64,000 nt of DNA from Haloarcula pelagica (GTDB lineage: Archaea > Halobacteriota > Halobacteria > Halobacteriales > Haloarculaceae), in NCBI RefSeq assembly GCF_030127105.1, contig NZ_CP126161.1, forward strand, positions 2,604,001 through 2,668,000, written 5' to 3'. Shown in pieces: positions 10,050 to 43,937 of the stretch. Each line of letters starts with the position of its first letter. Within the stretch, counting starts at the first letter, position 1. The translations under genes and the position numbers were made by a program. The notes under the pieces are model-generated. The model saw only the letters and a list, made by a program, of their open reading frames with translations, searched no databases and was not told the DNA's origin.

Positions 10050-10458
10050 TCATAACGATCTCTCGGCGGTAATTCTCGCCTGTTTGATTCCCGTCCCGAG
10101 GTGGGTGAGATTCCTGCAGGCCCTGCTCGATCTCCGAACACTCTCTGGGAACGACGAATCGAAGAAATGGACTCGCCGGGATTCCCGCGAACGGAGTGAG
10201 CGGGAAGTCGGCGAGGAAACGAACGGATGTGAGTGGACTCGCCGGGATTTGAACCAGAGGAAGACGGTCGTCTCGCTCCGCTCGACGCTGCGACTTCCAG
10301 GGCTCAAATCCCGTCTCGAACAGACAAAATTACGTCGCTCGCGAGTTTGCGAGCGACAGGAATTATGGACTCGCCGGGAGACCAAATCCCATCGGTCGTT
10401 GGCTGGTCAGTAGGTCGATGCGTCTGGTCGGTCCCTCTGGAGAGGGAGTCTGGTTTGC
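10050..10458. other. Att-region between host surface protein gene and integrase: repeated tRNA 3'-end fragments
   Basis: This 409-base stretch has no convincing gene. It holds three partial copies of the tRNA-Ala 3' end: 10168-10183 (16 bases), 10234-10255 (22 bases, exact) and 10376-10389 (14 bases). Between them are short inverted repeats such as CGCTCGCGAGTTTGCGAGCG around 10336-10355. Open frames here are short and low quality. The best copy, extended to 10232, pairs exactly with the intact tRNA at the other end of the element, so the host/element border is put at 10232-10255. Confidence 0.7.
10232..10255. repeat. Distal attachment site core of the integrated element
   Basis: These 24 bases are identical to 43899-43922, the 3' end of tRNA-Ala(GGC) plus two flanking bases. 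The match stops abruptly on both sides. The integrase gene starts its 3' end 200 bases further inside. This is the classic product of tyrosine-integrase insertion at a tRNA 3' end. Confidence 0.85.
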
Positions 10459-11469
10459 TCATAGGGAATCCTCCAAGAACTCACGTCGGATTTCGGCGCG
10501 TTCGCGTTCTGACCGCTCGTCGTAATGCTTCTCCAGTATATCTGAAGTCGCGTTGCTGCGACTGCTGACGACTTTTTCAGGAGTGCCGTCGCGGAGCATC
10601 CGCGTGATCGCGCCACGGCGGACGGCGTGAGGCGAAACCGACGACGGACACTCCCGAGCCTGCTTGTCCTGGGTCGCTTCGCAGTCGGCCAGGTCACGAT
10701 CGTGCGGGCACTCCTGGTCGATGATGCAAGGTCGGGTGAGCCGATAGACAGTCTCCCGAATCGCACCCTCGGACATCCGACCGAACTGGCTGGAGATCAG
10801 TGGCTCGCGGCCGTGATCGTCCGTGACGTTCACCCGGTTCACGCGGATGTAGTCGTCGATAACTGACCCATATTCCTCGCTGACCGTGATCGAGCGCTCG
10901 GCGGGCTCGCGGTTCTTCAGCGGAGTCCCGCTGTCTGGTCGATGGCGAATCTTCAGGAGGAGCGCTTTGCTATCCCAGTCCCCCACGTCCAGCGCCCGGA
11001 GCGTCCCGAGCCTGATCCCGGAATAAGCCAGAATCAGCATGATGATATGATCCCGGCTCGCGTAGCGATACTCGTCGAGAAAGTCCAGAATCGAACGCGC
11101 GCGGTCGGCGTCGAGCTGGACGCTCTTCGATTCCTCTGCGGCCGAGACGTTCGGCAGCACGACCTTCTCACGCAGGCCGTCCTCGACGGCGTCGATTGAC
11201 GCACAGAACTCCAGAAACACGCGCAGCGTGGCGAGATGCGTTTTCAGCGTCAGTGGCTTGATGTCCTCGCCGCGCCAGGTCCGATAGCTGTGGATATCGC
11301 GACCATCAAGCTCGTTCAGGTTCTCGATATCGTGGACCTCACAGAACTCGATGAACGTATCCAGCCGGTAGCGGTGGTTCTGGAGTGTCTTTTCGGATAC
11401 GTCGCTCTCGCGAAACTCCAGATACATCTCGACGGCCCGGCGCGGCTCGATCGGCCGGAGGTCGGTCAC
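10459..11469 (-). CDS. Tyrosine-family site-specific integrase
   Basis: The GTG at 11469 gives 336 residues. It is chosen because a TTTAT box lies about 23 bases upstream (leaderless start), and because a longer frame would translate tRNA-like sequence. An N-terminal SAM-like/core-binding domain (residues 10-100) is followed by the catalytic domain with R153 (SGIRLGTLRAL), H281-x-x-R284 (SPHAVRRG) and nucleophile Y316 (HYDERS). A C-P-H..C..C insertion near residues 248-275 could bind zinc. It sits next to the distal att copy and very likely catalyses integration and excision at tRNA-Ala. Confidence 0.9.
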   Translation of the reverse strand: MTDLRPIEPRRAVEMYLEFRESDVSEKTLQNHRYRLDTFIEFCEVHDIENLNELDGRDIHSYRTWRGEDIKPLTLKTHLATLRVFLEFCASIDAVEDGLREKVVLPNVSAAEESKSVQLDADRARSILDFLDEYRYASRDHIIMLILAYSGIRLGTLRALDVGDWDSKALLLKIRHRPDSGTPLKNREPAERSITVSEEYGSVIDDYIRVNRVNVTDDHGREPLISSQFGRMSEGAIRETVYRLTRPCIIDQECPHDRDLADCEATQDKQARECPSSVSPHAVRRGAITRMLRDGTPEKVVSSRSNATSDILEKHYDERSERERAEIRREFLEDSL

Positions 11470-11584
11470 GGCCCGACACCTCTGCCATAAAGCCCAACTG
11501 CTGGGTCTGCTAACTCGTACATGGGTCTGATACAGTTGGCCGCGCCCCGCGAGAGATTGGTACCTTGCCGCGGGACGCGACCGA

Positions 11585-11640
11585 TGGACCCAGCGGGACT
11601 TGCACCCGCTTTTCACCACTGTGGGGGTCTGAAACTACGG
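11585..11640 (-). other. tRNA 3'-half-like segment upstream of the integrase
   Basis: Read on the minus strand, this stretch ends in a perfect T-arm-like hairpin, GCGGG-TGCAAGT-CCCGC, followed by TGGGTCCA, like an acceptor 3' strand. No matching 5' half exists, because a coding region ends at 11635. The T loop lacks the usual TTC, so it is not a working tRNA. It may be a fossil or alternative attachment site. Confidence 0.35.
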
Positions 11641-12415: not shown

Positions 12416-12923
12416 CCCGCACCCCCAGCGCGTCGAGCGCGTCGTATAGCATCTGTTCGTCGGCGCCGTTCGCTGCCTGGAGCACGCGCCGGATCAGCCG
12501 GTCGTGCTGGTCGCCCTCGCGGGGTGGCCAGGGGACACCGCGCACCTCGGTCCAGAGCTCGTACATCGGCTGTTCGTCCAGTTCCAGTTCGACGCGCCCG
12601 TACTCGGTTGTCGCCGTCAGTACCCACCGATCCGTGTCGGGACCAGCCGGGCCGTAGGTGACCGTACTCCGAGACTCCTCGGTGACCTCGAACCGATACG
12701 AACTCTGCCCGCCGTCGGGCACGAGGTCGCGATCGTCGTCGTAGCGACTGCGCGAGAGTTCTGTCCGATCGACCAGTTCGCCACAGAGCGGGCAGTTCGT
12801 TTCCTCGTACTGGACCGCGGCGGTGCCCACGTCAGTGATCGAGCGGCCGACCGCCCAGCCCCCACCACTCCGGAACTCGTCGGACTCGGCGTCTGGCTCG
12901 TAGCCACAGTTCGGACACTGCAT
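12408..12923 (-). CDS. Two-zinc-site hypothetical protein
   Basis: ATG at 12923 gives 171 residues beginning MQCPNCGYEPD; a longer frame adds only low-complexity Arg/Gly sequence. It has C-P-N-C near the N-terminus and C-P-L-C around residue 43, which together can form a zinc ribbon. It contains VPDGGQ, a variant of the TDGG motif found across this element's proteins, then a beta-rich domain. The stop overlaps the next gene by 8 bases, and its start overlaps the stop of the upstream gene. Confidence 0.7.
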   Translation of the reverse strand: MQCPNCGYEPDAESDEFRSGGGWAVGRSITDVGTAAVQYEETNCPLCGELVDRTELSRSRYDDDRDLVPDGGQSSYRFEVTEESRSTVTYGPAGPDTDRWVLTATTEYGRVELELDEQPMYELWTEVRGVPWPPREGDQHDRLIRRVLQAANGADEQMLYDALDALGVRDE

Positions 12924-14440
12924 CAGTCGGTCACCTCCCCGACCGCGTCCCGAACGGCCTCGTCGGTCGCGCCCGTGGGCTGGTTGTCGATCGCCGACTC
13001 GGTACAACAGCGCCGCGCCGCGTCGTCACTCTCGTACTCGGCGAGACAGTCCCCGCAGTACCATACGTCGCCGCCGTCCGTCGCGACCTCCTCGCCGTCC
13101 CCATCACAGGGCAGGTGCGCGGGCAGTTCCTTCACCGGCTCGCCACAGAGTGGACAGGGCTGTTCGTCCATTTCCCCGCGCTGGTTGTGGCCGGTGCCCC
13201 CAGCACACCGACGACAGGGCTCGAAGTGGACCGCGATATCGTCCAGGCGCTTGCGCGTGATCTCGGCGGCCCGCTGGAGGTGCCCACACTCGGGATCGCG
13301 GTGAAACCGATGCTTGTGGTTCTTCCCGGCGCTGACGAACACGTACTCGTCGTCGCCGTGACACCGCGGGCAGGGCCGGGCGTCACAGAAGCGGGCGTAT
13401 TCGGGGCCGCGGTCCTCCGTGCGATCCTCGTACTTGCCCTTGATCGCCGAACACGCCGGGCTCGCGTGGAACGTGGACGTACTGGTGTTGCCCCGCTGCA
13501 TATAGAAGTGATCGAACCGATCGTAGTCGACGCCGCCGTCGGTCATGACATCCGGTGACGGGTCCTCACCAACGTCGTCGGCCTCCAGGTGCCGGAGCTT
13601 CGCGGCGATGCGCTCGACATCGACCTCTGTCGGCCCCTCGCCGTCGTCGGCAGCCTGCGCGCTGGGTTCCGGGTCCGGCCCCTGGTCGCCGCTGTCGGTC
13701 TCGCCGTCGAACTCACGAAGCACGGTCAGGAACGCCCGAACCGTCCGGCAGTGTGGGTTCGTGTCGGTGTTCAGGATGTGACTGAATCGGTTGTCCTTGT
13801 AGCCGGCACAGCGGCTCAGGTCCCGCATCGAGAGGCCAGCGTCAGCCCGCATCGCATCGAGTTCCGCGATCGTCGGGATACGAAACTGGTCGGGATCGGG
13901 CACGCCGCCGTCGGTGATGAGCCGCTCATCCTCGTCGTAGCAATCCTCGTGCCACCACTGTTCATCGTTCGTGGCTTTCCAGACGCCTGGTTGTTCGGTG
14001 TCGACTGGATCACCACATCGCTCACACAGCTGGAATCGGTCGTGGCCGACGACTTCCGGGCCGCCGTCGGTGACGAGTCGCTGGTCCTCGGGGACCGACT
14101 GCACAGACTCCCAGTAGTCGTCGACGGCCTCGATCGTCTCCTGGTGCTGCTCCGAGAGTCCGAGGCCGCACTGGGTGCAGTGTTTCGGCCCGCCGATCGC
14201 CTGCGTCCAGCGCGTCCCGTCACACTCGGGACACTCCGGCGGGTCGGCATCAGTGCGGGCGCGCATCTCGGTCCACAGCTCGTGACGCCGGTCGACGGCA
14301 GTGGCGTGGCCGTCCTCGCCGTGGTGCATATGCCGGAGGTTCTCACAGATCTCGGACCACTCCGCGACGAGCGCGGCCTTCGAGAGGTCGGTCACGTCCC
14401 GGTCGGTGCGTTCGTGGATCACGTCGTCGGGCTTAGTCAT
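12923..14440 (-). CDS. Modular zinc-finger/HTH protein with repeated TDGG linkers
   Basis: ATG at 14440 gives 505 residues. Modules in order: a helical N-terminus; a zinc ribbon (C-P-E-C and C-T-Q-C, about 70-95); a second zinc site (C-E-R-C with H and C, about 135-165); a Cro/C1-type helix-turn-helix (about 180-240, MRDLSRCAGYKDNRFSHIL); an H/C-rich region (about 320-420); and a final C-P-L-C ribbon. The modules are separated by VTDGG, ITDGG, MTDGG and ATDGG. It is probably a DNA- or RNA-binding protein assembled from smaller genes. It is co-directional and overlapping with its neighbours. Confidence 0.75.
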   Translation of the reverse strand: MTKPDDVIHERTDRDVTDLSKAALVAEWSEICENLRHMHHGEDGHATAVDRRHELWTEMRARTDADPPECPECDGTRWTQAIGGPKHCTQCGLGLSEQHQETIEAVDDYWESVQSVPEDQRLVTDGGPEVVGHDRFQLCERCGDPVDTEQPGVWKATNDEQWWHEDCYDEDERLITDGGVPDPDQFRIPTIAELDAMRADAGLSMRDLSRCAGYKDNRFSHILNTDTNPHCRTVRAFLTVLREFDGETDSGDQGPDPEPSAQAADDGEGPTEVDVERIAAKLRHLEADDVGEDPSPDVMTDGGVDYDRFDHFYMQRGNTSTSTFHASPACSAIKGKYEDRTEDRGPEYARFCDARPCPRCHGDDEYVFVSAGKNHKHRFHRDPECGHLQRAAEITRKRLDDIAVHFEPCRRCAGGTGHNQRGEMDEQPCPLCGEPVKELPAHLPCDGDGEEVATDGGDVWYCGDCLAEYESDDAARRCCTESAIDNQPTGATDEAVRDAVGEVTD

Positions 14441-16862: not shown

Positions 16863-17006
16863 GTGAAACGAAGTCAAAACTCGCCACCAAAACCAGCGAA
16901 AACTACCCACTCACACACCAGAGACACCGACAAACAGCAGTGAAACGAAGATGCAACGAAGTGAAACAAAATGCCGCCCTCGGGCGATTACAGCAGTGAA
17001 ACGTAA
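16863..17006. repeat. Iteron-like repeats GTGAAACGAAG next to orc1
   Basis: Four related copies occur: 16863-16873 and 16940-16950 (identical), 16961-16970 (GTGAAACAAA) and 16996-17006 (GTGAAACGTAA, overlapping the orc1 3' end). CAGCAGTGAAACG is shared by the copies near 16935 and 16991. The stretch 16819-16987 is otherwise non-coding and A-rich. Repeats beside an initiator gene are typical of replication origins, so this is a candidate initiator-binding array. Confidence 0.45.
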
Positions 17007-17983
17007 TCGGTCCCGCGCCCCTGCCCGCGACTCTCGATCAACTCGTACTGTTCGAGCGATTTGAGATACCGCCACCGCGTCGTCCGACTCTTGGGCGCCT
17101 CACACCGCGCTTCGTAGCGCGCATGGACTGTCTCGCCATCCAACTCGCCCGCCTCGTCGATGATATCGAACAACAGCCGTTGATGCGTTCCGAGCGACCG
17201 GACGTGTCGGCGCCGCAAGTCGGCTTCGGCGTCGGCCGCGACCGCCTCGACCACCTCGCAAGTCAACTCTTCGCGATCGCGCTCGGCGACCTGCTGGGCC
17301 GCCCACCGAAGCACGGTGATCGCGTGGCGGGCGTCCCCCGCGGCGATGTCGGCGACCCGCTCGATCGCGCCGTCGGCAACCCGACTGCGGATCAACCCGT
17401 GGGCGACCCGACTGTCGAGAATATCGACCAGTTCGGCGTGACTGAACTTATCGAGCCGGAGCGTCTGTGTCGACTGCATCCGCGAGATCACGGGTTGAGA
17501 CAGTTCGGCTAACCACTCGTCTTCGTCGACGGTGATGCACACGAGCGAGACGCCCGGCAGGTTCGACAGCGCCAACAGCAGTTCCTCGTCGGCGACGCCG
17601 ACCTCGTCCAGCGTCGCGATGATATGCTCGTCGGCCTCGCGCAACCGATCCAGTGCCTCGGACCGCGGGGCGCCCTCCCGCCGGAGGTCCGCCCCCAGCC
17701 CGACCTCGCGGATCAGGCGGTGCAACGCGGCGGCCTCGGTGGGGTCCGCGATACAGTCCACATACCCCCACCGCACGTCCAGCGTCTCGCGCCGGAGCTG
17801 CCCGAGGACGTACTTCGCGAGCGTCGTCTTCCCCGCGCCGCTCGGGCCGAAGATCGTCACCGACTCGGGCGCGTCGAAGCCGGTCGGGTCCAAGACAGCA
17901 GAGAGATGGTCGATCTGGCCGTCGCGATGGTGCAGGTCCTGCGGGACAGTGTCGGTCCGGAGCGCACGAGCGTCGGTAATCAT
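16988..17983 (-). CDS. Orc1/Cdc6-family replication initiator (short form)
   Basis: This 331-residue AAA+ ATPase has Walker A GPSGAGKT at residues 46-53, Walker B IIATLDEV at 121-128, a sensor-2-like region (AAGDARHAITVLRWA) and a C-terminal winged helix (about 255-331, HQRLLFDIIDEAGELDG then TTRWRYLKSLEQYELIE). Chromosomal haloarchaeal Orc1 proteins are usually nearer 370-420 residues; this shorter form is like those on plasmids. It would bind origin repeats and load the host helicase. Iteron-like repeats lie downstream and an 11-bp inverted repeat lies 70 bases upstream. It suggests the excised element replicates on its own. Confidence 0.88.
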   Translation of the reverse strand: MITDARALRTDTVPQDLHHRDGQIDHLSAVLDPTGFDAPESVTIFGPSGAGKTTLAKYVLGQLRRETLDVRWGYVDCIADPTEAAALHRLIREVGLGADLRREGAPRSEALDRLREADEHIIATLDEVGVADEELLLALSNLPGVSLVCITVDEDEWLAELSQPVISRMQSTQTLRLDKFSHAELVDILDSRVAHGLIRSRVADGAIERVADIAAGDARHAITVLRWAAQQVAERDREELTCEVVEAVAADAEADLRRRHVRSLGTHQRLLFDIIDEAGELDGETVHARYEARCEAPKSRTTRWRYLKSLEQYELIESRGQGRGTDYVSLL

Positions 17984-18432: not shown

Positions 18433-18909
18433 ATGCAGCTCAAAGAACTGTTCAACGACGATGATGCCGTCTCGCCGGTCATTGGCGTCATCCTCATGGT
18501 CGCCATTACGGTGATCCTCGCCGCAGTGATTGCATCGTTCGTCCTCGGGCTCGGGGACCAGACACAGAGTGCCACGCCGCAAGCCAGTTTCTCGTTCGAA
18601 TATGATGAGAGTGGTATCAGTGGCACTTCCGGGGAAGGGGTTCTGTCAGTCACGCATGACGGTGGTGACACGATCCCGGCAGACGAGCTTTACATCCGGG
18701 GTAGCGATTACACAACGGTCTCTTCTCCGCCGTCTGGCACAATGTCAAGTAATGGCCAATTCGCTGGTAACGTCAGCGTCAGCGAAGTGTCTGCTGGGAA
18801 TGGCGTCGAGGTGGCAGTCCAGAACTCGTACGAAATCCGTGTTGTCTACGAGTCCGCAGAAGGCGACTCCTCGGCCACGCTCGGTCAGGACTCCGGTCCC
18901 GAAGCATAA
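18433..18909 (+). CDS. PilA-type archaeal type IV pilin 1
   Basis: This 158-residue protein is chosen from the internal ATG at 18433, behind a clear TATA box. The N-terminus has the class III signal of haloarchaeal PilA proteins: a short charged leader (MQLKELFNDDD) then the strongly conserved H-domain AVSPVIGVILMVAITVILA, which is cleaved by PibD-type prepilin peptidase and forms the pilus core. The rest is a beta-rich head (SFSFEYDESG, THDGGDTIPADELYIRG) ending in LGQDSGPEA. It is a close paralogue of the pilin at 19231. It probably assembles into adhesion pili through the host PilB/PilC system. Confidence 0.9.
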   Translation: MQLKELFNDDDAVSPVIGVILMVAITVILAAVIASFVLGLGDQTQSATPQASFSFEYDESGISGTSGEGVLSVTHDGGDTIPADELYIRGSDYTTVSSPPSGTMSSNGQFAGNVSVSEVSAGNGVEVAVQNSYEIRVVYESAEGDSSATLGQDSGPEA

Positions 18910-19109
18910 CTGACGGCCGTTTTTCCGTTTTATTCAGACCGAACAGCCTCAACTCACCCACGATCGACGCGCTCAACCCCGGGCTGAAACCGATTCAACG
19001 CCGTCTTGAACAGCAAGCCATCGTGCGTAGACCACCGTCTCAGATGCTCTCCAGTAGATCAAGATTTTTGAAACGGTGGCGTTCTCATATTCTGTAAACA
19101 GAACATGGA
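18910..19109. other. Intergenic stretch after pilin 1 with T-rich end and a short palindrome
   Basis: T-rich sequence (GTTTTTCCGTTTTATT, 18919-18934) just after the stop is a likely terminator. TTCTGT-AA-ACAGAA at 19090-19103 is a short inverted repeat just before the TATA-like GAGTATAAGTG of pilin 2 and may be an operator. No gene is seen. Confidence 0.45.
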
Positions 19110-19230
19110 GTATAAGTGTAGCTATGCATTAATCAGGTCCACTGGAAAGTCAGGTGGAGAACCACCCGGTCCCCACGGGTAGTTGTTGAAGCTTCAACAA
19201 ATCTCTTTCGCCGGCTTTCCGGAGACAACT
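19110..19230 (+). promoter_or_regulatory. Promoter and structured 5' leader of pilin gene 2
   Basis: TATAAGTG (about 19111-19118) would start transcription near 19140, giving a leader of about 90 bases. The leader holds GGTGG-AGAA-CCACC (19153-19166), ACCCG-GTCCCCA-CGGGT (19164-19180), which shares bases with the first and so cannot form with it, and the perfect 18-bp palindrome TTGTTGAAGCTTCAACAA (19183-19200). Such competing hairpins suggest translational or attenuation control of the pilin. No ligand or protein can be inferred. Confidence 0.45.
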
Positions 19231-19692
19231 ATGGAAATACGCAACCTGTTTGACGACGAGCAAGGTGTATCGCCTGTCATTGGCGTCATCCTCATGGTGG
19301 CCATTACCGTGATCCTCGCGGCCGTCATCGCAACATTTGTGCTTGGTCTCGGTGACCAAGTGAGTAACACTGCCCCGCAAGCCAGTTTCAGCTTCGATTA
19401 CGAGGCTGACAGCTCACTCAGCGCCACTAATGCCAACGGCGTACTGACGATTACCCACGACGGCGGCGACGCGATCGCTGCCGACGAACTGTTCCTCCGA
19501 GGGTCATCGGTAAGCGGGGAAACCGGAAACTGGTCGAGTCTTAGCGGCACCGTCAGCAGTTCGAGTGAGGTGCGAGCCGGCAACAGCGCCGATATTCAGG
19601 TTTCAAATGACGACACGATTCGTACCGTCTTCCAGTCCAACGACGGCGGCAACTCCGCAACGCTCGGCCGCTGGACCGGTCCGGAAGCCTAA
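19231..19692 (+). CDS. PilA-type archaeal type IV pilin 2
   Basis: This is a 153-residue paralogue of the pilin at 18433. ATG at 19231 gives the short leader MEIRNLFDDEQ and the same H-domain (GVSPVIGVILMVAITVILA). The DNA for the start of this domain is identical over 23 bases in the two genes. The head domain keeps TITHDGGDAIAADELFLRG and ends LGRWTGPEA. Its own promoter and structured leader imply separate regulation. As a pilin it would be processed by PibD and assembled into surface pili. Confidence 0.9.
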   Translation: MEIRNLFDDEQGVSPVIGVILMVAITVILAAVIATFVLGLGDQVSNTAPQASFSFDYEADSSLSATNANGVLTITHDGGDAIAADELFLRGSSVSGETGNWSSLSGTVSSSSEVRAGNSADIQVSNDDTIRTVFQSNDGGNSATLGRWTGPEA

Positions 19693-19714: not shown

Positions 19715-20542
19715 GTGCCCTGTACGGACCCGACTGACAAGGACGACCTGATTGCAGCGTTCATTGCGACCTACAAAGGGAGTGAAGCCGCTTCACCGGA
19801 AGAACTGGTCCGCCAGTACCACCGAGTGACCCAGTATACAGCGAAACACCCGGACAAAGGATCTGCTGCTGTCTCGTCGGCTGTCGACCTACCCCGTCCC
19901 CGTGTTAGAACATGGGTGGACAGAGGCGGGATGCCGGATGCCGCCCGCGGGATGCAAGTCGCTGAAGGGCATGGCTGGTTCGATCTCTCCTGGGAAACAC
20001 CGATGTGCCACACACTCACGATCGCCGTCGCCTGGATCTTCAGCGGCGGCAGTATCAACGAGATGTGGGCGCCATCGTTTGCCGTCACCGAGAACACCCG
20101 TGCGTTCGCGGACAGCGTCTACGAGGCACTGGGTGTCGGCGCACGAACCGTCCGTTCGGACGACGACGGCCGAGCGACCGAACTACTGCCAGCCGCCGAT
20201 GGCAGTGTCCTTGGACGGGTGTTATCTGCACTGGGTGCCCCGACAGGGTCGAAGACACCTGACAGCGAAGTCTCACTGCCGCCGTGGCTCAGCGAGGCTC
20301 CGGACGACGTGCGACGTGCCTTCGCACAGACGTTCGTCTTCAACCGCGGGGTCGAGCGGCAGAATCGGCCCCAGACACCAGTGCAAATCAAAACGACACG
20401 AAGCGACGAGTTTCGGGAAGATATCCAAGCGCTTTGCGAGTCGGTGACTGCTGAATCGGCTGTCACGGGCGATTCGGAAGTGTGGCGCCTTACCGCACCC
20501 GCAGCATTTCAACTGTATCAGGCGCCCGAGATACCCAGCTGA
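19715..20542 (+). CDS. LAGLIDADG-like putative DNA-binding protein or nuclease with N-terminal HTH
   Basis: This 275-residue protein starts with GTG at 19715, 22 bases after pilin 2. The N-terminus (SSAVDLPRPRVRTWVDRGGMPDAARG) looks like a helix-turn-helix. HTLTIAVAWIFSGGSI (about residues 98-113) resembles a LAGLIDADG core helix, and the later segment LGAPTGSKT followed by LPPWLSEAPDDVRRAFAQTF (about 170-210) follows the pattern of the second half of LAGLIDADG_3-type folds. The expected acidic residues at the helix ends are not clear, so it may be an inactive, regulatory relative. The assignment is from pattern memory only. Confidence 0.5.
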   Translation: MPCTDPTDKDDLIAAFIATYKGSEAASPEELVRQYHRVTQYTAKHPDKGSAAVSSAVDLPRPRVRTWVDRGGMPDAARGMQVAEGHGWFDLSWETPMCHTLTIAVAWIFSGGSINEMWAPSFAVTENTRAFADSVYEALGVGARTVRSDDDGRATELLPAADGSVLGRVLSALGAPTGSKTPDSEVSLPPWLSEAPDDVRRAFAQTFVFNRGVERQNRPQTPVQIKTTRSDEFREDIQALCESVTAESAVTGDSEVWRLTAPAAFQLYQAPEIPS

Positions 20543-34098: not shown

Positions 34099-34382
34099 TC
34101 GCGCTCGTGCTCGGCGATGCGCTGAAAGCCATCGGCTTGCCGGGCTCGATCGCCGTGTTCGCGTCGGGCCTGGTCGCGCTGTATCACGGTCGGTCGATCA
34201 TGGCCTTCCTGGGCACGATCGGGTTCGCCGCCAAGGTCGGCGGCGTGATCGGCGTGCTCCTGTTCGCGGCGTTCCTGGGCCTGATCCCGGGTGTCACGTT
34301 GGACGTGTCGCTGACGACGCTGACCGACCTCCTCGGTGCGCTCGTCGACGTGGCGACCGCGATCGCGGAGGTGGCACTGTGA
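34095..34382 (+). CDS. Small membrane protein of the structural operon
   Basis: A 95-residue, almost wholly hydrophobic protein with about three helices, starting with GTG by overlap with the previous stop. It has no cysteines. Likely part of the membrane assembly. Confidence 0.6.
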   Translation: MIALVLGDALKAIGLPGSIAVFASGLVALYHGRSIMAFLGTIGFAAKVGGVIGVLLFAAFLGLIPGVTLDVSLTTLTDLLGALVDVATAIAEVAL

Positions 34383-34483
34383 GTCAAGCGAAGTCACTCG
34401 TCGCCTGCCAGCGGTGTGCGGCGGCCGACGACGAGTGTCGGTTTTGCCCGGCCTGTGGGCGCGACAGGCGGAGGTTCCGATGA
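34379..34483 (+). CDS. 34-residue zinc-ribbon peptide
   Basis: GTG at 34379 and overlap of 4 bases at both ends define a 34-residue protein: C-Q-R-C, then C-R-F-C-P-A-C and an Arg-rich end (GRDRRRFR). Five cysteines in 20 residues can bind one zinc, and the basic tail suggests nucleic-acid contact. It is too short for most gene callers. Confidence 0.6.
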   Translation: MSQAKSLVACQRCAAADDECRFCPACGRDRRRFR

Positions 34484-34917
34484 CAGACACTGAGCGACTG
34501 CCCTACCTGGGCATGGCTGCGAGGCATCGTTTCCGACTGAGTACGTTGCACCGGCTGTTCGTGATCGCTGTCGTCGTCTTCTACGGCGTCGGCGACACGG
34601 CGACGACGATCGCCGTCCTCACCAGCGGCGGTGTCGAAGCCTCGGCGGTCGCGACGGCGGCACTCGACGAGGTCGGCCTGCTGGGTCTGGTCGGGCTCAA
34701 ACTGCTGGCGCTGTCGTTCGTTGGGGTCGCGTGGCTGTTCCTCGATCGTGTCGGCGACCGGCTCCGGATCGACGCCCAGCCATTCCAGCTCGGGATGCTT
34801 GCGATCCTGGTTGTCAGGGGGGCGTGGCTCGCCGCTTGGAATCTCGCTGTCCTGGCCGAGTTGCACGATGTCGTCGGTGCGACAGGCATGGTGCCGTACC
34901 CGGGGGTGGTGGCGTGA
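34480..34917 (+). CDS. Four-span membrane protein of the structural operon
   Basis: ATG at 34480 overlaps the zinc peptide stop. The 145-residue protein has four hydrophobic helices (about 22-46, 58-88, 74-96 and 104-130) and a basic start. It precedes the large surface protein, whose GTG overlaps its stop. Function unknown. Confidence 0.62.
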   Translation: MTDTERLPYLGMAARHRFRLSTLHRLFVIAVVVFYGVGDTATTIAVLTSGGVEASAVATAALDEVGLLGLVGLKLLALSFVGVAWLFLDRVGDRLRIDAQPFQLGMLAILVVRGAWLAAWNLAVLAELHDVVGATGMVPYPGVVA

Positions 34918-37109
34918 AACGCACCACTGCTATCGCGTTGTCGCTGGTGGTCGTCCTGGCCGCCTTCCCATCGGCGGTGATGGCTGCCCCACCGTCTGAC
35001 CCATCCAGTAGCGATTTTGCCAACTGGGAGGATTACGAAGACGGGAACAATCCACATTCATTCGGTTCAGTGATTGACAAAGGCTACTTCGGTAGCAAAT
35101 CATTGGAGGCCGACGGGACAATAAACTACAACATTGACGCTTCTCAGAGAACAAAATCAGTGTATGGGACGTTCAAGCACGACTACTTCAAATTCGAGAT
35201 TGCCCAGGATGATAATAACAAACTGGTCTCAATTTCGTTCAAGGGGCCTACCCAAAACAGCTACAAGATGGGGAAGCGGTTTGATGGAAACTTCCAGACA
35301 GTAGCGGACACTGGATGGGACCCAACTAAATGGACGATGTTCTACGCCGAAATCCATCCAGATAATACAATCGATATATGGATATTCTATCCGTCTGATG
35401 GGATGCCAAGTTCGCCGACGTATAGCTACAGCTACCCATCCGACATCTCAAAGGATAACTTGAATGTGTTAGTGTATCCCCAAAGTGGCGCGTATCTTGA
35501 CGAATATGGTGTAGGGCAAGACTATTCCACGCTCTCCGGCACCGTCACCGACGGCTCGGGCAACGTCGTCGGCGCGGCCAACGTCACGGTCACGAACAGC
35601 ACGGGCGCCACGATCGCCACGACAACGACCGATGCGGGCGGCGACTATAGTGTCACCGTCAGCGACGGCATCGACGCCACGGTCAGCGTCTCGAAAAGCG
35701 GCTACAAGACCGCCAGCGACACGACGGCGGTCTCGGGCGCCACCACACTCGATATTACGCTACCCCAGTCCGACCAGACGAAATTCGTGCTGGACGACCA
35801 GACACAGCGCGGCCTGTTCCCAGCGACACAGACCACACTCGTCGTCGAGAAGCGATCGAACCTCCGGCCACCATTCACGTACAAAACCGTCTCCAGCAAG
35901 ACCTTCGGGAGCGACGAGGAAGTCACCACGAACCTGAAACTCGGCGCGAAGTACCGCGTCGCCGTCAACGCACCGGGTTCGTCACTGTCCTGGCGCGGCT
36001 GGCAGTACACGACCAACACCCCGGACGTGATCCAGATCACACCAACCGGGCCGTCGAAGTACATCACGAACCAGACCCAGCCGACACCGACGGCCACGGG
36101 CTCGACACCAACACTGTCAGACCCAGGAACGCCGACGCCGGCCGATGGCGGCTACATCACGCCCGACCCGACCCCGACGCCGGCGCCGATCACGCCGGCC
36201 CCCACACCCACACCGTCGGACCCGATCATCGGCCCGATCGTGCCCGACCCACAGCCAACGCCGACGGTCGAACCGACGCCCACGCCTGGTGACGGCGGGT
36301 TCGTGACGCCGGAGCCGATCACGCCCCGGCCAACGCCGACCCAGGCGCCGATCGAGGCGCCACCGAACGCGACGGCCACGCCGACACCGGTGACGACCCG
36401 GGACTACCCCTACGAGGAGGGCTACGCGTGGGCAACGCGGCGGTGTACGATGCCCGACGGCTCGCCCGGCCTCTACGTCGAGTACTACGACAGCGACAAA
36501 GAGACGACGCGGATCACCGCCGACCCGCAACTGACCGGCAACGATGGCGTCACCCGGGAGGTGACGATCGACAAGACGTTCGTCGAGCCGATCGGCTACT
36601 GGTCGAGCTGCATCGCGGCCGAGGAGTTCCCACCGATCGATGACGAGCCCGAGCCAGACCCGACGCCGACGCTGGCGCCGGGCGCGACGCCAACGCCGAC
36701 GGACGACAGTGGGTTCTTCGATCCGGACCCGTCGACGCCGACGGAGGGCGACGAGTTCACCACGGCAACGCCGATCGACAGCGGCGACATCTGTGACGCA
36801 GCGTCGGTCCAGTTCCGCGCCTACAACAGCTCCGGTGGGACGGTCGCCAACGGCACCCAGGACTGTCGGAGCGACCTGCCACCGGCGGATTCGGGCTGGA
36901 ACACGACTGATCCGACGACACCGACCAACGGCTCGAACGCGATCGGCGGTGGTGCTGGTGGTGGCGCTATCATCGGCGACGACGCTGGTTCGGGAGCCTC
37001 GCCACTCCTGATCGGCGTGCCGGCCGTCGGCGCGATCGGCCTGGCGCTGTACCGGCGCTACCAGGGCGGCGGTGGCGCTGGTGGGGCCGGCAGCGCTGGC
37101 GGTCCGTAG
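34914..37109 (+). CDS. Mosaic surface protein with A/T-rich N-terminal domain (candidate receptor-binding or adhesion protein)
   Basis: GTG at 34914 gives 731 residues. In order: Sec signal peptide (1-26); an N-terminal domain (about 27-200) of ConA/LamG-like beta character encoded by A/T-rich DNA (35000-35530); a carboxypeptidase-regulatory-like domain (about 202-285, LSGTVTDGSGNVVGAANVTV); another beta domain; a TP-rich stalk (about 385-490); a Cys-containing domain (about 495-600, conserved-looking); a short TP linker; then a Gly-rich hinge, one membrane helix and a Gly tail (about 660-731). The composition jump implies that the tip domain was swapped in by recombination, as in phage fibres. 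Confidence 0.75.
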   Translation: MKRTTAIALSLVVVLAAFPSAVMAAPPSDPSSSDFANWEDYEDGNNPHSFGSVIDKGYFGSKSLEADGTINYNIDASQRTKSVYGTFKHDYFKFEIAQDDNNKLVSISFKGPTQNSYKMGKRFDGNFQTVADTGWDPTKWTMFYAEIHPDNTIDIWIFYPSDGMPSSPTYSYSYPSDISKDNLNVLVYPQSGAYLDEYGVGQDYSTLSGTVTDGSGNVVGAANVTVTNSTGATIATTTTDAGGDYSVTVSDGIDATVSVSKSGYKTASDTTAVSGATTLDITLPQSDQTKFVLDDQTQRGLFPATQTTLVVEKRSNLRPPFTYKTVSSKTFGSDEEVTTNLKLGAKYRVAVNAPGSSLSWRGWQYTTNTPDVIQITPTGPSKYITNQTQPTPTATGSTPTLSDPGTPTPADGGYITPDPTPTPAPITPAPTPTPSDPIIGPIVPDPQPTPTVEPTPTPGDGGFVTPEPITPRPTPTQAPIEAPPNATATPTPVTTRDYPYEEGYAWATRRCTMPDGSPGLYVEYYDSDKETTRITADPQLTGNDGVTREVTIDKTFVEPIGYWSSCIAAEEFPPIDDEPEPDPTPTLAPGATPTPTDDSGFFDPDPSTPTEGDEFTTATPIDSGDICDAASVQFRAYNSSGGTVANGTQDCRSDLPPADSGWNTTDPTTPTNGSNAIGGGAGGGAIIGDDAGSGASPLLIGVPAVGAIGLALYRRYQGGGGAGGAGSAGGP

Positions 37110-37111
37110 CG

Positions 37112-37501
37112 ATGGCCGATCCCTCGTTCGGCCTCGTGGCAGGCCTCACGACGCTGCTCGTGTTCCAGCTCCCACAGCTCAGGCGCGTCGTCACGGACGT
37201 ACTGGCGGACGACCCTGAGACGGAGCCGACGCCGATCGATCAGGCCCACCACGCGTTCGTCGAGGGCGAGATCGGCGTCGAGGAGCTGGAGCGACGGCTG
37301 GCCGTCTTGGTCGACGATCGAGCGCGGACGATCCGGGAGATGGCCGACGACGCCGACGGCATCGGCGAGGCGTTGTCACGCGACCTCGCCCGTGAGTTCG
37401 ACACTGTGAGCGAGTTGCGAGGGGCCGACGCGGCGGACTTCGAGCGGATCGACGGGATCGGAGAGAAACGAGCCAAGCGGTTGGTCGAGACGCTGGAGTA
37501 A
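37112..37501 (+). CDS. Membrane-anchored helix-hairpin-helix protein
   Basis: A 129-residue protein: an N-terminal hydrophobic segment (GLVAGLTTLLVFQL), an SHOCT-like stretch (IDQAHHAFVEGEIGVEELERRL, about 43-65) and a C-terminal helix-hairpin-helix (LRGADAADFERIDGIGEKRAKRLVETLE), which typically binds DNA without sequence preference. It is the last gene of the + structural operon. It could attach the element's DNA to the membrane during packaging; that is inference. Confidence 0.72.
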   Translation: MADPSFGLVAGLTTLLVFQLPQLRRVVTDVLADDPETEPTPIDQAHHAFVEGEIGVEELERRLAVLVDDRARTIREMADDADGIGEALSRDLAREFDTVSELRGADAADFERIDGIGEKRAKRLVETLE

Positions 37502-37802: not shown

Positions 37803-39458
37803 CTACCAAATGGGTCGATCTCGGTTGTGCCGACCGAGCAACCGACGGTTCACGACGATCCGCTCGTCGTTGTGCGTAGTGCCGTCGGGCTCGGTCCAGG
37901 TGATCTCGGCGTCCTCGAACTCACGGGTCAGCATGGCCGACGCCTCGGCGGCCTCGATCCCCGAGCGGACGATCTTCAACATCTCCTGGAGGCTGACGGG
38001 ACGAGACAGTTCCATCTCCAGACCGTTCGTGGCGTCCTGCACGGTGATCCCGTGGCGGTTCAGCCACCGTTCCAGGGCCGATGGCTCGCCGTCGTCGCCA
38101 CGCGACAGCGGCGTCGCCCGATCGGCGACACTCCGCAACGACTCGACGGCGGCGTCTTTCGTCGAGCCGAACCAGTCGGCGACTTTTTCGATCTGATCGC
38201 GGACGACACCGTCACGAAACCTAATCTCGCCGCCGTCGACGGCGAGAATATCGTCGAACTGCTCGACGGCCCGGTAGACCGTCGACGTGGAGCGACCGGC
38301 GTCCTCGGCCAGTTCGTCGTAGGGTCGCGAGCCGCCGTCGGTCATGGCTTCGAGCACGTCCCACTCGGCGGCCGTCGTCTCCGGACTCATCAACTGGTCT
38401 TTCGCGTCGGCACGCTCCTGTTCTTCGAGGTCGGGCATCGGGTTCGGATGCACCTCGTAACTGCGATCGCCGGCCTCGACGTCGAAGTACGGATCGCTGA
38501 CCCACGTCTCGGTGGTCGGCGAAAAGTCCACACCAGCCCAGTTCAGCGCGTTCACGATCGTCTGGCCCAACTCCTGGACGGCACTGTCGTAGCCGTCCCA
38601 CCGAAGCGAGTCGTCGCCGTTGGGATAGTAGCCTTTCCAGTACTGACACTCGATTTTGTGGTGGTACAGCGGGTCGTCCTCACCGTCGGACCGAACCCAC
38701 TCAGGCTGGTAGCACTTCAACCGCTTCGCCAGCCCTTGCCCGTCGATCAGCCGCGCCCAGTTGGCCGGACTGAGCGACACAGCCTCGTAGTGGCCGACGA
38801 TCTCCTCGTGGTCCCACTTGTACTCGCCCCGACCGCGGCCGTTGCTGAACTGCGCGATGTGTTCGAGTACGCCGCCCTTCCCGGCGACCTTGCCGGTCGC
38901 GACCGCGCGACGGATGCGGCCGTACACCTCCAGGCCGTAGATCGACGACCACTCGTGCGGGGCCTGGAAGTACTCGGCGTTGATGCCCAGGTGATCGGCC
39001 AGCGCCTGGAGCAACCCCAGAATCTCCCGCTGGTCGAGGTTCGTCGCTTCGACCTGGACACGGATCGACTCGGGGCACTGCGTGGGCATCCCCTGGATCA
39101 TGTCGCCAGTCTCGACGTGGCGAGCTTCGGGAAAGCCCGGCCGGAACGTAAAGTCGGCGCCACGTTCGTCGTGCTCGTCGTCGTCGGCGTACACACCGAG
39201 CTTGTATTCGTTCAGGCCACCGTCGAACCCGAAGAACTCGCTGTCGGCGGCGATCTGCCCTTCCCAGTGAACCGAGTTCTCGATGCCCCACTGCCGATCG
39301 TCGAAGGCGAACGTCTCCTCACGCTCGTCGAGGTCGGGTTCGTACTGCCCGACGACTGCGTGATACGGAGAGAGGTCGTCGTCATCGAACAGCAGGTTCG
39401 CGGCCACGCGATGGGGCCGCAGGGCGACCACGTCATCGATCGTCGAGGACAGCGTCAT
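37803..39458 (-). CDS. Large hypothetical protein with central winged helix
   Basis: A 551-residue protein with two parts. Residues 1-360 form a large unrecognised domain rich in W, Y, H and D. At about 370-440, AEWDVLEAMTDGGSRPYDELAEDAGRSTSTVYRAVEQF-type sequence forms a winged helix; the MTDGG inside it matches the element-wide motif. The C-terminus is helical. Similar long proteins are frequent on haloarchaeal plasmids and proviruses. A replication or partition role is possible but not shown. It is the last gene of the minus-strand operon 43937-37803. Confidence 0.65.
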   Translation of the reverse strand: MTLSSTIDDVVALRPHRVAANLLFDDDDLSPYHAVVGQYEPDLDEREETFAFDDRQWGIENSVHWEGQIAADSEFFGFDGGLNEYKLGVYADDDEHDERGADFTFRPGFPEARHVETGDMIQGMPTQCPESIRVQVEATNLDQREILGLLQALADHLGINAEYFQAPHEWSSIYGLEVYGRIRRAVATGKVAGKGGVLEHIAQFSNGRGRGEYKWDHEEIVGHYEAVSLSPANWARLIDGQGLAKRLKCYQPEWVRSDGEDDPLYHHKIECQYWKGYYPNGDDSLRWDGYDSAVQELGQTIVNALNWAGVDFSPTTETWVSDPYFDVEAGDRSYEVHPNPMPDLEEQERADAKDQLMSPETTAAEWDVLEAMTDGGSRPYDELAEDAGRSTSTVYRAVEQFDDILAVDGGEIRFRDGVVRDQIEKVADWFGSTKDAAVESLRSVADRATPLSRGDDGEPSALERWLNRHGITVQDATNGLEMELSRPVSLQEMLKIVRSGIEAAEASAMLTREFEDAEITWTEPDGTTHNDERIVVNRRLLGRHNRDRPIW

Positions 39459-39985: not shown

Positions 39986-40624
39986 CTACCGCTCACCTCC
40001 GCCGTCGGCAGCGAAGTGCTCGATATCGGCCTGCCCAGGCGGGTGGTAGTTGTCGATTTGCTCGCGGAGCCAGCCCTGTTGATCGCCGATCCCGCCGAGG
40101 TCGTCCCGGCGGAACGGGTAGGCGACGTGTCGGTGCCGATCGAGTTCGTCCTCGATGTGCCGGTGACCGACGTAGTCCTCGCCGGCAAGCACGACGTAGT
40201 GCGTGTACGGGATCTTCAGCGAGGTCCAGACGGAGAGCGATTGCGCGGTCTCGACAGCCCACACGCCGGCTTCGTAGTCGCCGATGTAGCTGTCTGACTG
40301 CGGATTCAGCGAGGCATCGTAGTGCTCGATCTCCGTCTCGGGATCGAGCAGACCGTGTTTCGCCGAGAGGATCTGCCACTCGTCACAGCACTCCTCGGCG
40401 TACTCCCGTTTCAGCGAGAAGTACGGCGAGGTGTAGAGGTCCTTTGCGGGAACGGTCTCGCCATCGTCGAGATCCTGTTTCGCAGACCCACAGCCGACGA
40501 GTGCGATCCGAGGCGTCGCGACACAATCCTGGCAGTACTGGCCGTCCTCGCGGGAAAACGCACTCTCGATACCGCCCTCGGGTGGGAGCCGACTGTCACA
40601 GTCGAGACAGCGGTCGGCGGCCAT
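39986..40624 (-). CDS. DUF6884-like protein with N-terminal zinc ribbon
   Basis: A 212-residue protein. A C-L-D-C and C-Q-D-C ribbon (about 6-35) precedes a domain with RIALVGCGSAKQ, AKDLYTSPYFSLKREYAE and ILSAKHGLLDPETEIEHYD. I recognise this series as the DUF6884-type family found widely in phages and plasmids; its biochemical role is not settled as far as I know. The C-terminus AADGGGER is coded by the Shine-Dalgarno of the next gene. Confidence 0.72.
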   Translation of the reverse strand: MAADRCLDCDSRLPPEGGIESAFSREDGQYCQDCVATPRIALVGCGSAKQDLDDGETVPAKDLYTSPYFSLKREYAEECCDEWQILSAKHGLLDPETEIEHYDASLNPQSDSYIGDYEAGVWAVETAQSLSVWTSLKIPYTHYVVLAGEDYVGHRHIEDELDRHRHVAYPFRRDDLGGIGDQQGWLREQIDNYHPPGQADIEHFAADGGGER

Positions 40625-42509: not shown

Positions 42510-43421
42510 CTCGGTGTCGTCCTCGCCGTCCTCGCCACGATCACGACGCTCGCTCGGGCGAACGTACTCGATCATGTCGCCGCAGTCGGGACAACTCGAC
42601 CCGCCGATCTTCGAGCTCAGTAGCTCGGTGAACGTCTCGCCACAGCCCGGACACTCGATCGGGATCTGTGTCTCCCGATCGGGGACCTCGACGACGTGTT
42701 CGTAGTCGCGGCCGCCGTCGGTGACGAGCTGGTCGTCGCGAAGCGCTTGCAGTGCGCGGTTGCACTTCCCGATGAGGATCTGGCGCGTCACATCGGCCGC
42801 CTTCTCGGCCTGTATCACGGCCGTCAGTGCGTCCTCGCGTTTCGGCGTGATCCAGCCGTGCCAGTACAGAAACTCGCCGTCGCGAGCCATCTCGTCACAG
42901 GCATCGAGAACCTCGTCACGGCCGAACTCGCCGTGCTCGATATCCTGGCGGAGGTGGTACTTCGACGTCCAGGGGTTGTACTGGTCGGACGGGTCGTCCA
43001 GGTCGATCCGGGCCTCGACACGCTCGCGAATCCACTCGCGAACGTCGCGGCCACCGTCGGTCGCGGTCACCCGCGGCTGTGCCCCAGTCCCGTCACAGGC
43101 AGGACACGGGTCGTTCCCGTCGTGGATGCACACGCCCTTCGCGTGGCAGATGTCGTCGATACAGCCCAGGATCTCGCCGCGGCCGTGACAGCGCTCGCAG
43201 TCGACCCAGGCGACCGACTCCAGCGAGCACTCGCGGACGCCGTCGGCGTCGATCGCCTCGATGCCGCCGGGCGTCAGCTCGTGCTCGATCCGGACGTGGG
43301 TCTGGCAGTCGGCACAGAACAGCGTCGCCCGGCGTTCGCTGTCGGTCGTGAACGCCGCGGTCTCGATCATCCGACCTTCACACTCGGTGCACTCGCCGAT
43401 GATCGCGACCTCAGACCGCAT
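41472..43421 (-). CDS. Modular zinc-finger protein with DnaJ-type cysteine repeats and MazG-like end
   Basis: A 649-residue protein. In order: a zinc ribbon (C-T-E-C, C-A-D-C); DnaJ-like repeats (C-E-R-C-H-G-R-G and C-P-A-C-D-G-T-G, about 74-110); a helical module after ATDGG (about 120-225); a ribbon after VTDGG (about 230-285); several ribbons after the next VTDGG (about 305-405); another after ATDGG (about 420-490); and, after VVTDGG, a helical end with LIEEVGEVAMAM, resembling the metal-binding E-E-x-x-E helix of MazG pyrophosphohydrolases. Five TDGG linkers separate the modules. It overlaps its neighbours by 4 and 11 bases. Confidence 0.72.
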   Translation of the reverse strand: MRSEVAIIGECTECEGRMIETAAFTTDSERRATLFCADCQTHVRIEHELTPGGIEAIDADGVRECSLESVAWVDCERCHGRGEILGCIDDICHAKGVCIHDGNDPCPACDGTGAQPRVTATDGGRDVREWIRERVEARIDLDDPSDQYNPWTSKYHLRQDIEHGEFGRDEVLDACDEMARDGEFLYWHGWITPKREDALTAVIQAEKAADVTRQILIGKCNRALQALRDDQLVTDGGRDYEHVVEVPDRETQIPIECPGCGETFTELLSSKIGGSSCPDCGDMIEYVRPSERRDRGEDGEDDTEQTTLVTDGGTRGPLAICAGCGKVPAGRALGGQCTDCGGQFVEATDDRLACDRCGDADASRVLNCEAYDRLCTDCVDWTNRENPECPEPTCERRLIEWSGAWECPGCWRHVDADDQLATDGGFEFVDEARPPKYGPHTVPRIECGRCGHEHHIDCATGEYQGHCSNCYGFLRRPSEVEQRRFYDFMAWKARFVEAESDRRVVTDGGIDRHDLGDRWGERAEENVETWGNQRHDVLLLALIEEVGEVAMAMQNHCEGGAGLPPNAVPYDQPEVVGRDLIAEMASLGRQTRAFLEDEFPEPAGRDADGREHIAITGDPTDADRIVEEVEDAAPLLWQLHWALQGGDSE

Positions 43422-43650
43422 CGGGCAGCACCTCCTGGGTGGGGTCGGCCAGCCTGGACGAGCGGACGACCTTGCCGTGGTCGGGAAACTCGTCAGGACG
43501 GCGCGGACAACCGATGTAGTGGCCGTATTCGACGCTTTCGGTCGGGGACTTCGAGATCCGCGCCCGGCAGTTCGGACAGCGGGCTTCGAGGCGCTTCGTC
43601 GGCTTGATGTCCTGCTGCCGGCGCCGGAGTTCGGCCAGGTCGATCGTCAC
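43411..43650 (-). CDS. Small zinc-site protein
   Basis: GTG at 43650 (GTGA overlap with the preceding stop) gives 79 residues with C-P-N-C near residue 28 and a single later Cys (IGCPRRPDEFPDHGK) that may complete a site. Basic start (DLAELRRRQQD). Overlaps the next gene by 11 bases. Function unknown. Confidence 0.58.
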   Translation of the reverse strand: MTIDLAELRRRQQDIKPTKRLEARCPNCRARISKSPTESVEYGHYIGCPRRPDEFPDHGKVVRSSRLADPTQEVLPDAV

Positions 43651-43937
43651 GCCTGGCACCTCCCGTCGTCGAGGGCGGGACAGCGCTGGCCGGGCTCGAA
43701 TCTGGTCCCACAGTAGTCACAGATCGGGCCTTCTATCGAGATGTCGACAGTATCCCTCGCCCGACGGCGGCGGGCACCCGACGAGTCGTCAGCATCTCTG
43801 TTTCGCGAGGGAGTCCGCTGTTCGACAGTTCGGCGGATAGCGGTTCTGAGGCGGCGATAAACGGCGTTCGCCAGTCCCCGGAAACGACGGATAAGAGAAG
43901 TGGACTCGCCGGGATTTGAACCCGGGGCCTCTCCCAT
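43647..43937 (-). CDS. Zinc-finger protein whose 5' end runs into the attachment site
   Basis: The C-terminal 35 residues are convincing: ISIEGPICDYCGTRFEPGQ then C-P-A-L-D-D-G-R-C, a zinc ribbon like its neighbours, and the stop overlaps the next GTG. Upstream the frame is open through the att core into the tRNA, and the only ATG (43937) lies inside the tRNA gene. No GTG or ATG start exists between. The true start may be lost, non-standard, or differ in the circular form, where other DNA lies upstream. Confidence 0.4.
   Translation of the reverse strand: MGEAPGSNPGESTSLIRRFRGLANAVYRRLRTAIRRTVEQRTPSRNRDADDSSGARRRRARDTVDISIEGPICDYCGTRFEPGQRCPALDDGRCQA
43899..43922. repeat. Proximal attachment site core (3' end of tRNA-Ala)
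   Basis: These 24 bases are identical to 10232-10255. They cover the T-arm 3' strand and acceptor end of the intact tRNA plus two flanking bases, so the tRNA stays whole after insertion. Confidence 0.85.

Follow-up and report, generated by a model that had tools for sequence, protein, structure and literature searches.

Spread of DNA by membrane vesicles has a precedent in the haloarchaeal plasmid pR1SE; this plasmid and its kin (apHPVs) can integrate, encode MCM or Orc1/Cdc6 and have a VirB4/HerA-type ATPase as part of a membrane/surface module (PMC10818511). The pT26-2 family of Thermococcales and Methanococcales, whose integrated or free members measure 17-38 kb, has a syntenic membrane-rich core whose products include a HerA/VirB4/B204-like ATPase, a protein with five TM segments, and CarboxypepD_reg and carbohydrate-binding domains, and provides a precedent for DNA export as a hypothesis (PMC6972569). 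Pleolipoviruses combine a surface protein anchored at its C terminus with a P-loop ATPase and small membrane proteins.

Within the window analysed here, a 64,000-nt stretch of Haloarcula pelagica DNA, an integrated element of 33.7 kb shares the listed features of all three groups. Judged by sequence, it is neither a pleolipovirus nor an apHPV nor a pT26-2-type element, and its layout resembles the last two. We read it as an integrative plasmid of a widespread, apparently undescribed haloarchaeal family with a conserved membrane/surface operon, a module that putatively exports the element's DNA in vesicles or pleomorphic particles, and we assign this explanation as a whole, export included, a probability of about 0.5. 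If true, it would add a third archaeal lineage, unrelated in sequence to pR1SE/apHPVs and pT26-2, with a plasmid-coded membrane apparatus for moving DNA.

Integration site and accessory genes

An earlier, sequence-only reading of this DNA had described a complete, bounded element with perfect 24-bp att repeats and an integrase, and repeat identity, the tRNA 3' end and empty sites in relatives bear this out. The left att copy (10232-10255) and the right one (43899-43922) match perfectly over 24 bp and at 27 of 29 positions over 29 bp, the right copy being the 3' end of a tRNA-Ala(GGC) gene on the minus strand (43900-43972). Comparison with related genomes revealed Haloarcula relatives with the same tRNA site but without the element; the gene on the left flank, the tRNA and/or the genes on the right flank adjoin one another on both sides in one of them (G394) and on one side in three others (G395, G396 and G392). 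At the same tRNA site, G337 carries a different 7.3-kb insertion and G391 two different ones in tandem; in Halorhabdus G145, the space between tRNA-Ala(GGC) and a similar att copy is taken up by a family member some 28.5 kb long. Halorhabdus elements that occupy this tRNA encode homologues, 53-54% identical (53% in G145), of the tyrosine integrase beside attL (10459-11469, minus strand; Phage_integrase PF00589, E 4e-9). Integrase, att repeat at a tRNA 3' end and empty sites together identify a tRNA-gene integrative element.

The Orc1/Cdc6-type replication initiator that the same reading had named was recovered at 16988-17983 (minus strand; Cdc6_lid, AAA_16, TIGR02928), but its repressor came down to a weak HTH inside a 505-aa protein (12923-14440). 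Two tandem type IV pilin-like proteins are encoded on the plus strand (18433-19692; 18433-18909 and 19231-19692), with an 81% DNA repeat between them and a Pilin_N match in the first (4.8e-26). A second, smaller tyrosine recombinase of 201 aa (20677-21282, plus strand), absent from the earlier reading, occurs in 19 of the 55 non-redundant family loci, and a DUF7845 regulator (37803-39458, minus strand; PF25227 1.4e-89, phrog_3288 7.6e-86) in 22.

Core operon and its relation to described systems

Some 20 coupled membrane/surface genes had been proposed. The self-contained coupled module stands, but its core is a near-continuous plus-strand operon of 18 genes (23167-37501), about 13 of them with predicted membrane segments. 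Most genes overlap by 4 or 1 nt; short gaps precede 24660 and 25155, and longer ones span 225 nt (33268-33492) and about 97 nt (34383-34479). The lead surface protein A (23167-24654, 495 aa) has a signal peptide, a C-terminal membrane segment and a region resembling carbohydrate-binding modules (residues 92-271); its AF2 model (pLDDT 83.9) matches CBM11 (Z 12.8) and the HFTV1 turret (Z 11.3), with low whole-protein TM-scores; this CBM-like domain alone is informative. Nine small genes, B to J (24660-28531), encode proteins mostly with 1-6 membrane segments, of which B, D, E and F are widely conserved. K (28531-31263, 910 aa) comprises a PKD domain (PKD_4, 6e-13), a P/T-rich linker and a conserved C-terminal part that has five predicted membrane segments; the match of K to phrog_15511 was set aside as probably reflecting low-complexity P/T-rich and PKD sequence. 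The conserved soluble protein L (31256-32056, 266 aa) is encoded directly before the ATPase M (32059-33267, 402 aa). By position and weak similarity, the 5-TM protein N (33493-34098) probably corresponds to the C-terminal membrane portion of c4, a 950-1540-aa protein of other members, and the small 2-TM protein O (34095-34382) resembles the small proteins that come after c4 elsewhere. A small protein with three predicted TM segments, P (34480-34917), is followed by Q (34914-37109), a 731-aa surface protein with a signal peptide, a CarboxypepD_reg domain and a C-terminal TM, which has a homologue in the nearest relative only, and by the helix-hairpin-helix protein R (37112-37501). Pfam offered nothing useful for the C-terminal part of K or for L, N, F and c4. 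In line with the sequence-only reading, the proteins scanned against Pfam, PHROGs and NCBIfam gave no match to a capsid, portal, terminase or relaxase family. A tailed virus (Caudoviricetes) was discarded, there being no PHROG or Pfam match for major capsid protein, portal or large terminase.

About 50 non-redundant haloarchaeal loci share the conserved core genes in the same order. The K-L-M unit is present in 50 of the 55 loci, B in 48, c4 in 44 and A in 41; among 391 genomes of the class, 69 have K and 70 have M, and the two sets are nearly the same. A free circular member of 39.5 kb, pNG300 of Haloarcula marismortui, carries H, B, D, E, K, L, MCM, M, c4 and Orc1, unlike pNG100, pNG200 and pNG400 of that species, which have M and the cis site described below without the rest of the module, as do G270:C18 and G212:C7. 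About 18% of the Halobacteria species sampled have the module, yet IMG/VR scans with M, an M alignment and a pT26-2 ATPase retrieved no relative. Likewise, 50,697 phage records held no match to M or A, and a DNA search with the operon for CRISPR spacers in the genus gave no clear spacer-like match.

The single P-loop ATPase that had been noted earlier is indeed there, and its AF2 model (pLDDT 84.8) matches HerA (Z about 17), STIV2 B204 (Z 14.8), VirB4 (Z 14.2) and TrwB (Z 13.9). With a HerA-like ATPase fold and Walker A/B motifs, M is, on this model, a member of the FtsK-HerA superfamily with the fold of a DNA pump, and may act as one. Its best viral fold match is the putative packaging ATPase of sphaerolipovirus PH1 (E 1e-8), although the two share only about 10% identity and no capsid protein family was found in the element. 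Structural matches to tailed-virus or conjugation proteins had been expected to refute spread in membrane particles; M does match the conjugation ATPases VirB4 and TrwB, yet it also matches viral packaging ATPases, and because the fold is common to both, this check does not discriminate.

The same reading had envisaged a related or new transmissible system much larger than known pleolipoviruses. Size (7-19 kb in the pleolipovirus records compared) and novelty, as a new widespread family, held up, whereas profile comparisons did not uphold kinship with pleolipoviruses or pR1SE. A large pleolipovirus or pR1SE-type plasmid would account for the spike-like A, the small membrane proteins and the one P-loop protein, but we regard it as highly improbable, since similarity to the spike, ORF7 and ATPase profiles built from ten pleolipoviruses is confined to the P-loop level. 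A and K have no profile match to spike or ORF7; phrog_2231 and the ten-virus spike profile leave A unmatched, with only its Gly-rich/TM tail aligning, and profile searches with the element proteins found no homologue of ORF7-type or VP3-type membrane proteins. No pleolipovirus spike is among the entries in the fold-match list of A, an absence that in itself excludes nothing. Hhalign gave 91-94% probability for M against the pleolipovirus VP8-type NTPase, barely above the 84% of the unrelated Orc1 family against the same profile. The apHPVs were represented by the core region of pHALXA03, compared by BLAST of the element proteins and with ten family HMMs; the one match was a homologue of R, which adjoins that core without belonging to it. 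Homologues of ORF6-ORF9 or ORF17-ORF25 are lacking, the proteins scanned gave no subtilase match that would stand for the S8 serine peptidase ORF7 of apHPVs, and the cis site is unmatched. Kinship with pT26-2 was rejected after profile-profile comparison of seven core genes (t26-5, 6, 7, 11, 13, 14 and 15) from three members, with a best non-P-loop probability of 5%; how unspecific P-loop scores are is seen from Orc1, which itself matches the pT26-2 ATPase at 89%. Here too the cis site is unmatched, and the hosts differ.

A conserved cis site behind the ATPase gene

A non-coding cis site (33334-33377, plus strand), consisting of a CG dyad and a G/C-run palindrome, occurs once per element just behind M, here in the 225-nt gap. 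A strict regular expression recovered it in 25 of 55 sequence windows downstream of M, against 0.0036 expected per window, and nearly all matches of its profile in 1.01 Mb are the cis site itself. The copy studied here is a weak match (12.6 bits, E 0.24), some family members have no recognisable site, and Rfam returned nothing at this position. DNA homology to the nearest relative stops at 31157 and restarts at 33384, 7 nt past the site, and the identity of L and M to their counterparts there is only about 40%, against 65-93% for most neighbouring genes: the L gene, the ATPase and the cis site have been swapped as a block between two close relatives. The orphan M genes of pNG100 and pNG200 keep the site and have a dN/dS of 0.04-0.10, pNG400 carries it inverted on the other side of M, and G188:C8 and G016:C3 have the site and a recombinase without M.

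Block exchange, together with Haloarcula plasmids that keep only ATPase and site, suggests that L, M and the cis site may form a DNA-recognition cassette, possibly with helper-satellite relations. We tentatively entertain a fuller version, in which the three would serve a new transfer system that forms vesicles or particles as its cognate cassette for DNA loading, and the plasmids with M and site (pNG100, pNG200, pNG400, G270:C18, G212:C7) or with site and recombinase (G188:C8, G016:C3) would be satellites carried by the machinery of full elements like pNG300; if true, archaea would have a helper-satellite system that does without a classical capsid. The similarity of cis sites follows that of L (r 0.70) and of K (r 0.66) more closely than that of M (r 0.51), so a tracking specific to M finds no support and M is not established as the reader of the site. 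It is possible, if doubtful to much the same degree, that the site is unrelated to M and serves as a promoter/terminator or as a dif-like recombination site of the small recombinase at 20677. Its position in an intergenic gap, where a c4 promoter could sit, agrees with this, as do the two plasmids that pair site and recombinase without M; however, no TATA-like or T-run feature is obvious on inspection, many members have no recombinase nearby, and pNG100 has the site with M while its sole integrase is marginal and of another type. The inverted copy of pNG400 argues that the site is not simply the terminator of M. The cis site and the ATPase-only plasmids offer direct experimental handles in Haloarcula marismortui, a strain that can be cultured and has been sequenced.

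Possible routes of DNA transfer

Membrane proteins of its own, a DNA-pump motor and a conserved DNA tag suggest that the element's DNA is probably spread in membrane particles or through membranes. The integrase would excise the element from tRNA-Ala and Orc1/Cdc6, or in other members MCM/GINS, would replicate the circle. A surface-exposed membrane complex might then be assembled from A, K, N/c4 and the module's small membrane proteins, L and M could bind the cis site as a loading site, and M would pump the circle through this complex into a vesicle or pleomorphic particle as it buds. The next cell would be recognised by A, through its sugar-binding-like domain, and by c4 and Q, the large proteins that vary. 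What the analysis shows directly is where the element integrates, the order of its genes, the family, the fold of the ATPase, the cis site and the block exchange; excision, replication, DNA pumping, loading at the site and the vesicle or particle as vehicle are inferred.

The VirB4 and TrwB matches of M and the type IV pilin genes would equally suit a contact-dependent, conjugation-like element, with K, N, c4 and the small TM proteins as mating channel, M as motor and the cis site as an oriT for double-stranded transfer without release from the cell; haloarchaea are described as mating via cell contact (PMC7749143). We consider this rather unlikely: there is a single ATPase and no relaxase, K, L, N, F and c4 contain no recognisable T4SS component, and large variable surface proteins with CBM/PKD/Ig-type domains also fit release and attachment. 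The lack of any relaxase or VirB-type channel family match speaks against a relaxase-type T4SS element and is compatible with relaxase-independent transfer. Less probable again is a surface or secretion structure that benefits host or element, which would then move solely by transformation or whole-chromosome mating. The wealth of surface proteins and the retention of the module in chromosomes of many species would accord with such a role. Against it stand the pairing of a HerA-type DNA pump with a conserved DNA site linked to it, the module on a free plasmid and the similar elements that different genera carry at this tRNA.

As to export in vesicles or particles, the module proteins are all without demonstrated particle function, the fold of M suits conjugation equally well, the family is absent from the IMG/VR ATPase scans and, for M or A, from the phage records, and the weak cis site here, like the members without a recognisable one and the closer tracking of site similarity with L and K than with M, also counts against it. 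In its favour are the lack of a relaxase-type match, the conservation of K-L-M, the block exchange of L, M and site, the orphan M genes that retain the site, the precedents of pR1SE and pT26-2, the free plasmid pNG300, the pump fold of M, the CBM-like domain of A and the cis site itself.

Integration site and bounds

The 24-bp repeat at 10232-10255 recurs exactly at 43899-43922; its right copy coincides with the 3' end of tRNA-Ala(GGC), and the left copy is adjoined by a tyrosine integrase. Four genomes of the host genus hold an element-free version of the site, with the tRNA directly adjoining homologues of the left-flank gene (G394, G395, and G396) and/or the right-flank genes (G394 and G392). 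In two more (G337 and G391), att copies at this tRNA enclose different insertions. The bounds proposed by the sequence-only reading for this 33.7-kb element are thus right, and the tRNA-Ala(GGC) site is an insertion hot spot. A 45-bp stretch just outside attL (10139-10183), 80% identical to the tRNA 3' end and flank at 43872-43916, is probably a relic of an earlier integration at this tRNA. Copies of 10243-10300, just inside attL, occur at 79-95% identity in many places in Haloarcula genomes and probably mark where further integrated elements have their left ends.

A conserved operon in haloarchaea

Of 391 genomes of the class, searched as one representative per species, 70 hold a homologue of the ATPase M (32059-33267) and 69 one of the C-terminal part of the 910-residue protein K, the two sets being almost identical. 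Among the hosts are Halorhabdus, Haloferax, Natronomonas, Halorubrum, Haloplanus, Halosimplex, and Halovivax. Gene calling, by a simple codon-usage caller in relatives, and clustering of 55 non-redundant loci revealed a single order for the module (23167-37501 in the window): (small recombinase)-A-B and other 2-TM proteins-D-E-F-K-L-(GINS/MCM)-M-c4-small 2-TM protein. The soluble protein L is present in 52 of these loci, K in 51, B in 48, the large protein c4 in 44, and the surface protein A in 41; DUF7845 (22/55), Orc1 (19/55), the tyrosine recombinase of 20677-21282 (19/55), and MCM (15/55) are rarer. From position and weak similarity, c4 appears to be reduced in the window to its membrane part, the 5-TM protein N, accompanied by a separate large surface protein, Q. 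The circular 39.5-kb plasmid pNG300 of Haloarcula marismortui is a free member, whose MCM and GINS-like genes were noted earlier as an outlier case (PMC3972481). Our literature search, with many subscription journals outside its reach, found no published description of the module. One haloarchaeal member lies inside an assembly labelled Rhizobium sp. S152 (NZ_JAUDRZ010000015.1), a label that very probably reflects contamination or mislabelling.

Fold prediction covered two proteins, M and A, and membrane segments came from a hydropathy scan. M has the predicted fold of a FtsK/HerA-superfamily ATPase, with Z about 17 against HerA, 14.8 against STIV2 B204, 14.2 against VirB4, and 13.9 against TrwB, its best viral match being the putative ATPase of PH1. 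A (23167-24654) is a confident beta-rich model (pLDDT 83.9), in which residues 92-271 resemble carbohydrate-binding modules, with Z 12.8 and an rmsd of 2.7 over 146 aligned positions for CBM11, and also the turret of Haloferax tailed virus 1 (Z 11.3). K contains a PKD domain; no useful Pfam match was obtained for L, N, F, c4, or the conserved C-terminal region of K. Two further loci of the same genome (G000:C1:46586 and 3496424) have 83% identity to the 5' part of gene A at 23203-23328. Elsewhere in the element are a tandem pair of pilin-like genes (18433-19692), with type IV pilin genes also on the H. marismortui plasmids pNG100, pNG200, and pNG400; a strong match to phrog_14115, a viral family of unknown function (19715-20542, E 7e-69); and a DUF6884 protein (39986-40624), possibly defence or DNA-modification cargo, which matches the PADLOC candidate PDC-M57A (E 1.5e-22) and has a weak similarity to DpdC.

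A putative DNA-export apparatus and its relation to known systems

Judged from sequence, the module is most likely a membrane-embedded DNA-export apparatus, of which L and M would form the loading and pumping unit. Family searches matched no capsid, portal, terminase, or relaxase among the element proteins scanned, as the sequence-only reading had claimed. DNA might travel by direct cell contact, but neither a relaxase nor a T4SS component was matched in the element. Together with surface proteins bearing sugar-binding and Ig-like domains and the precedent of pR1SE, this leads us to favour a vesicle or pleomorphic particle as the vehicle. The proposed kinship with pleolipoviruses and pR1SE was not supported. 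Against profiles from ten pleolipoviruses, A reached 6% with the spike and K 1% with ORF7; M scored 91-94% with VP8, which probably reflects P-loop similarity, since the Orc1 family also reaches 84% against this VP8 profile. The pR1SE-type plasmid pHALXA03, compared as a representative of that type, shares only a homologue of the helix-hairpin-helix protein R. The published features of pT26-2 (a 5-TM protein, CarboxypepD_reg, a carbohydrate-binding domain, and a HerA/VirB4/B204-like ATPase) are very like those of the module (PMC6972569), but three pT26-2 plasmids have nothing in common with it beyond the P-loop. We file the module as a separate family that may work like these systems.

The site behind M and the plasmids that retain it

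Genes of the operon mostly overlap, except for a gap, usually of 100-250 nt, directly behind M. It holds a conserved element, ACGCGCGCGT, followed by about TCGGATA or GGAACAGGAACGG and next by a palindrome of a G-run and a C-run, for example GGGGGGACCCCCC. Of 55 downstream windows, 25 match this cis site by a strict regex, against a background expectation, taken from the remainder of the loci, of 0.0036 per window. A profile built from 22 sites (R1) matched, in 1.01 Mb, almost only this gap, once per element, and had no match in pT26-2 plasmids, pleolipoviruses, or pHALXA03. The window's own copy (33334-33377) is assigned mainly by position and regex, because its R1 match is weak (12.6 bits; E 0.24, a rough value given the shortened model calibration) and it is itself a training sequence.

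DNA of a close relative (G368) is about 77-81% identical to the window on either side of an interval that opens within the 3' end of K, after 31157, and closes before 33384. In this interval L and M are only about 40% identical to their counterparts at the protein level, and the cis site differs. Exchange thus affected L, M, and the site together, as a single block. In a comparison of 25 members, the similarity of the sites correlates with that of L (r 0.70), K (0.66), and M (0.51), partly through shared ancestry, and does not single out M as partner.

Plasmids pNG100, pNG200, and pNG400 keep an intact M and the cis site, inverted and on the other side of M in pNG400, without A, B, K, or L, and a remnant of c4 persists on pNG100. 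Between pNG100 and pNG200, the M genes are separated by 24 synonymous and 3 nonsynonymous substitutions (dN/dS 0.036); against pNG300, dN/dS is 0.10, so these copies look functional. On two contigs (G270:C18 and G212:C7), M and a variant site are accompanied by a fragment of L; the G212 genome also has a full module. Two other contigs (G188:C8 and G016:C3) combine the site and the small recombinase, with no M nearby. Deletion decay explains the origin of these plasmids. We hypothesize that they are satellites and that repeated retention of M and/or the site would reflect a satellite's need. A locus without the module (G385:C1:178000-197999), in which the cis site occurs twice at a spacing of 1.2 kb close to a fragment of DUF7845, is probably a decayed element. 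A long repeat array of pNG300 (20070-23200 of its locus, L128) is common to pNG400, which has a type I-B cas operon; the arrays look like CRISPR arrays.
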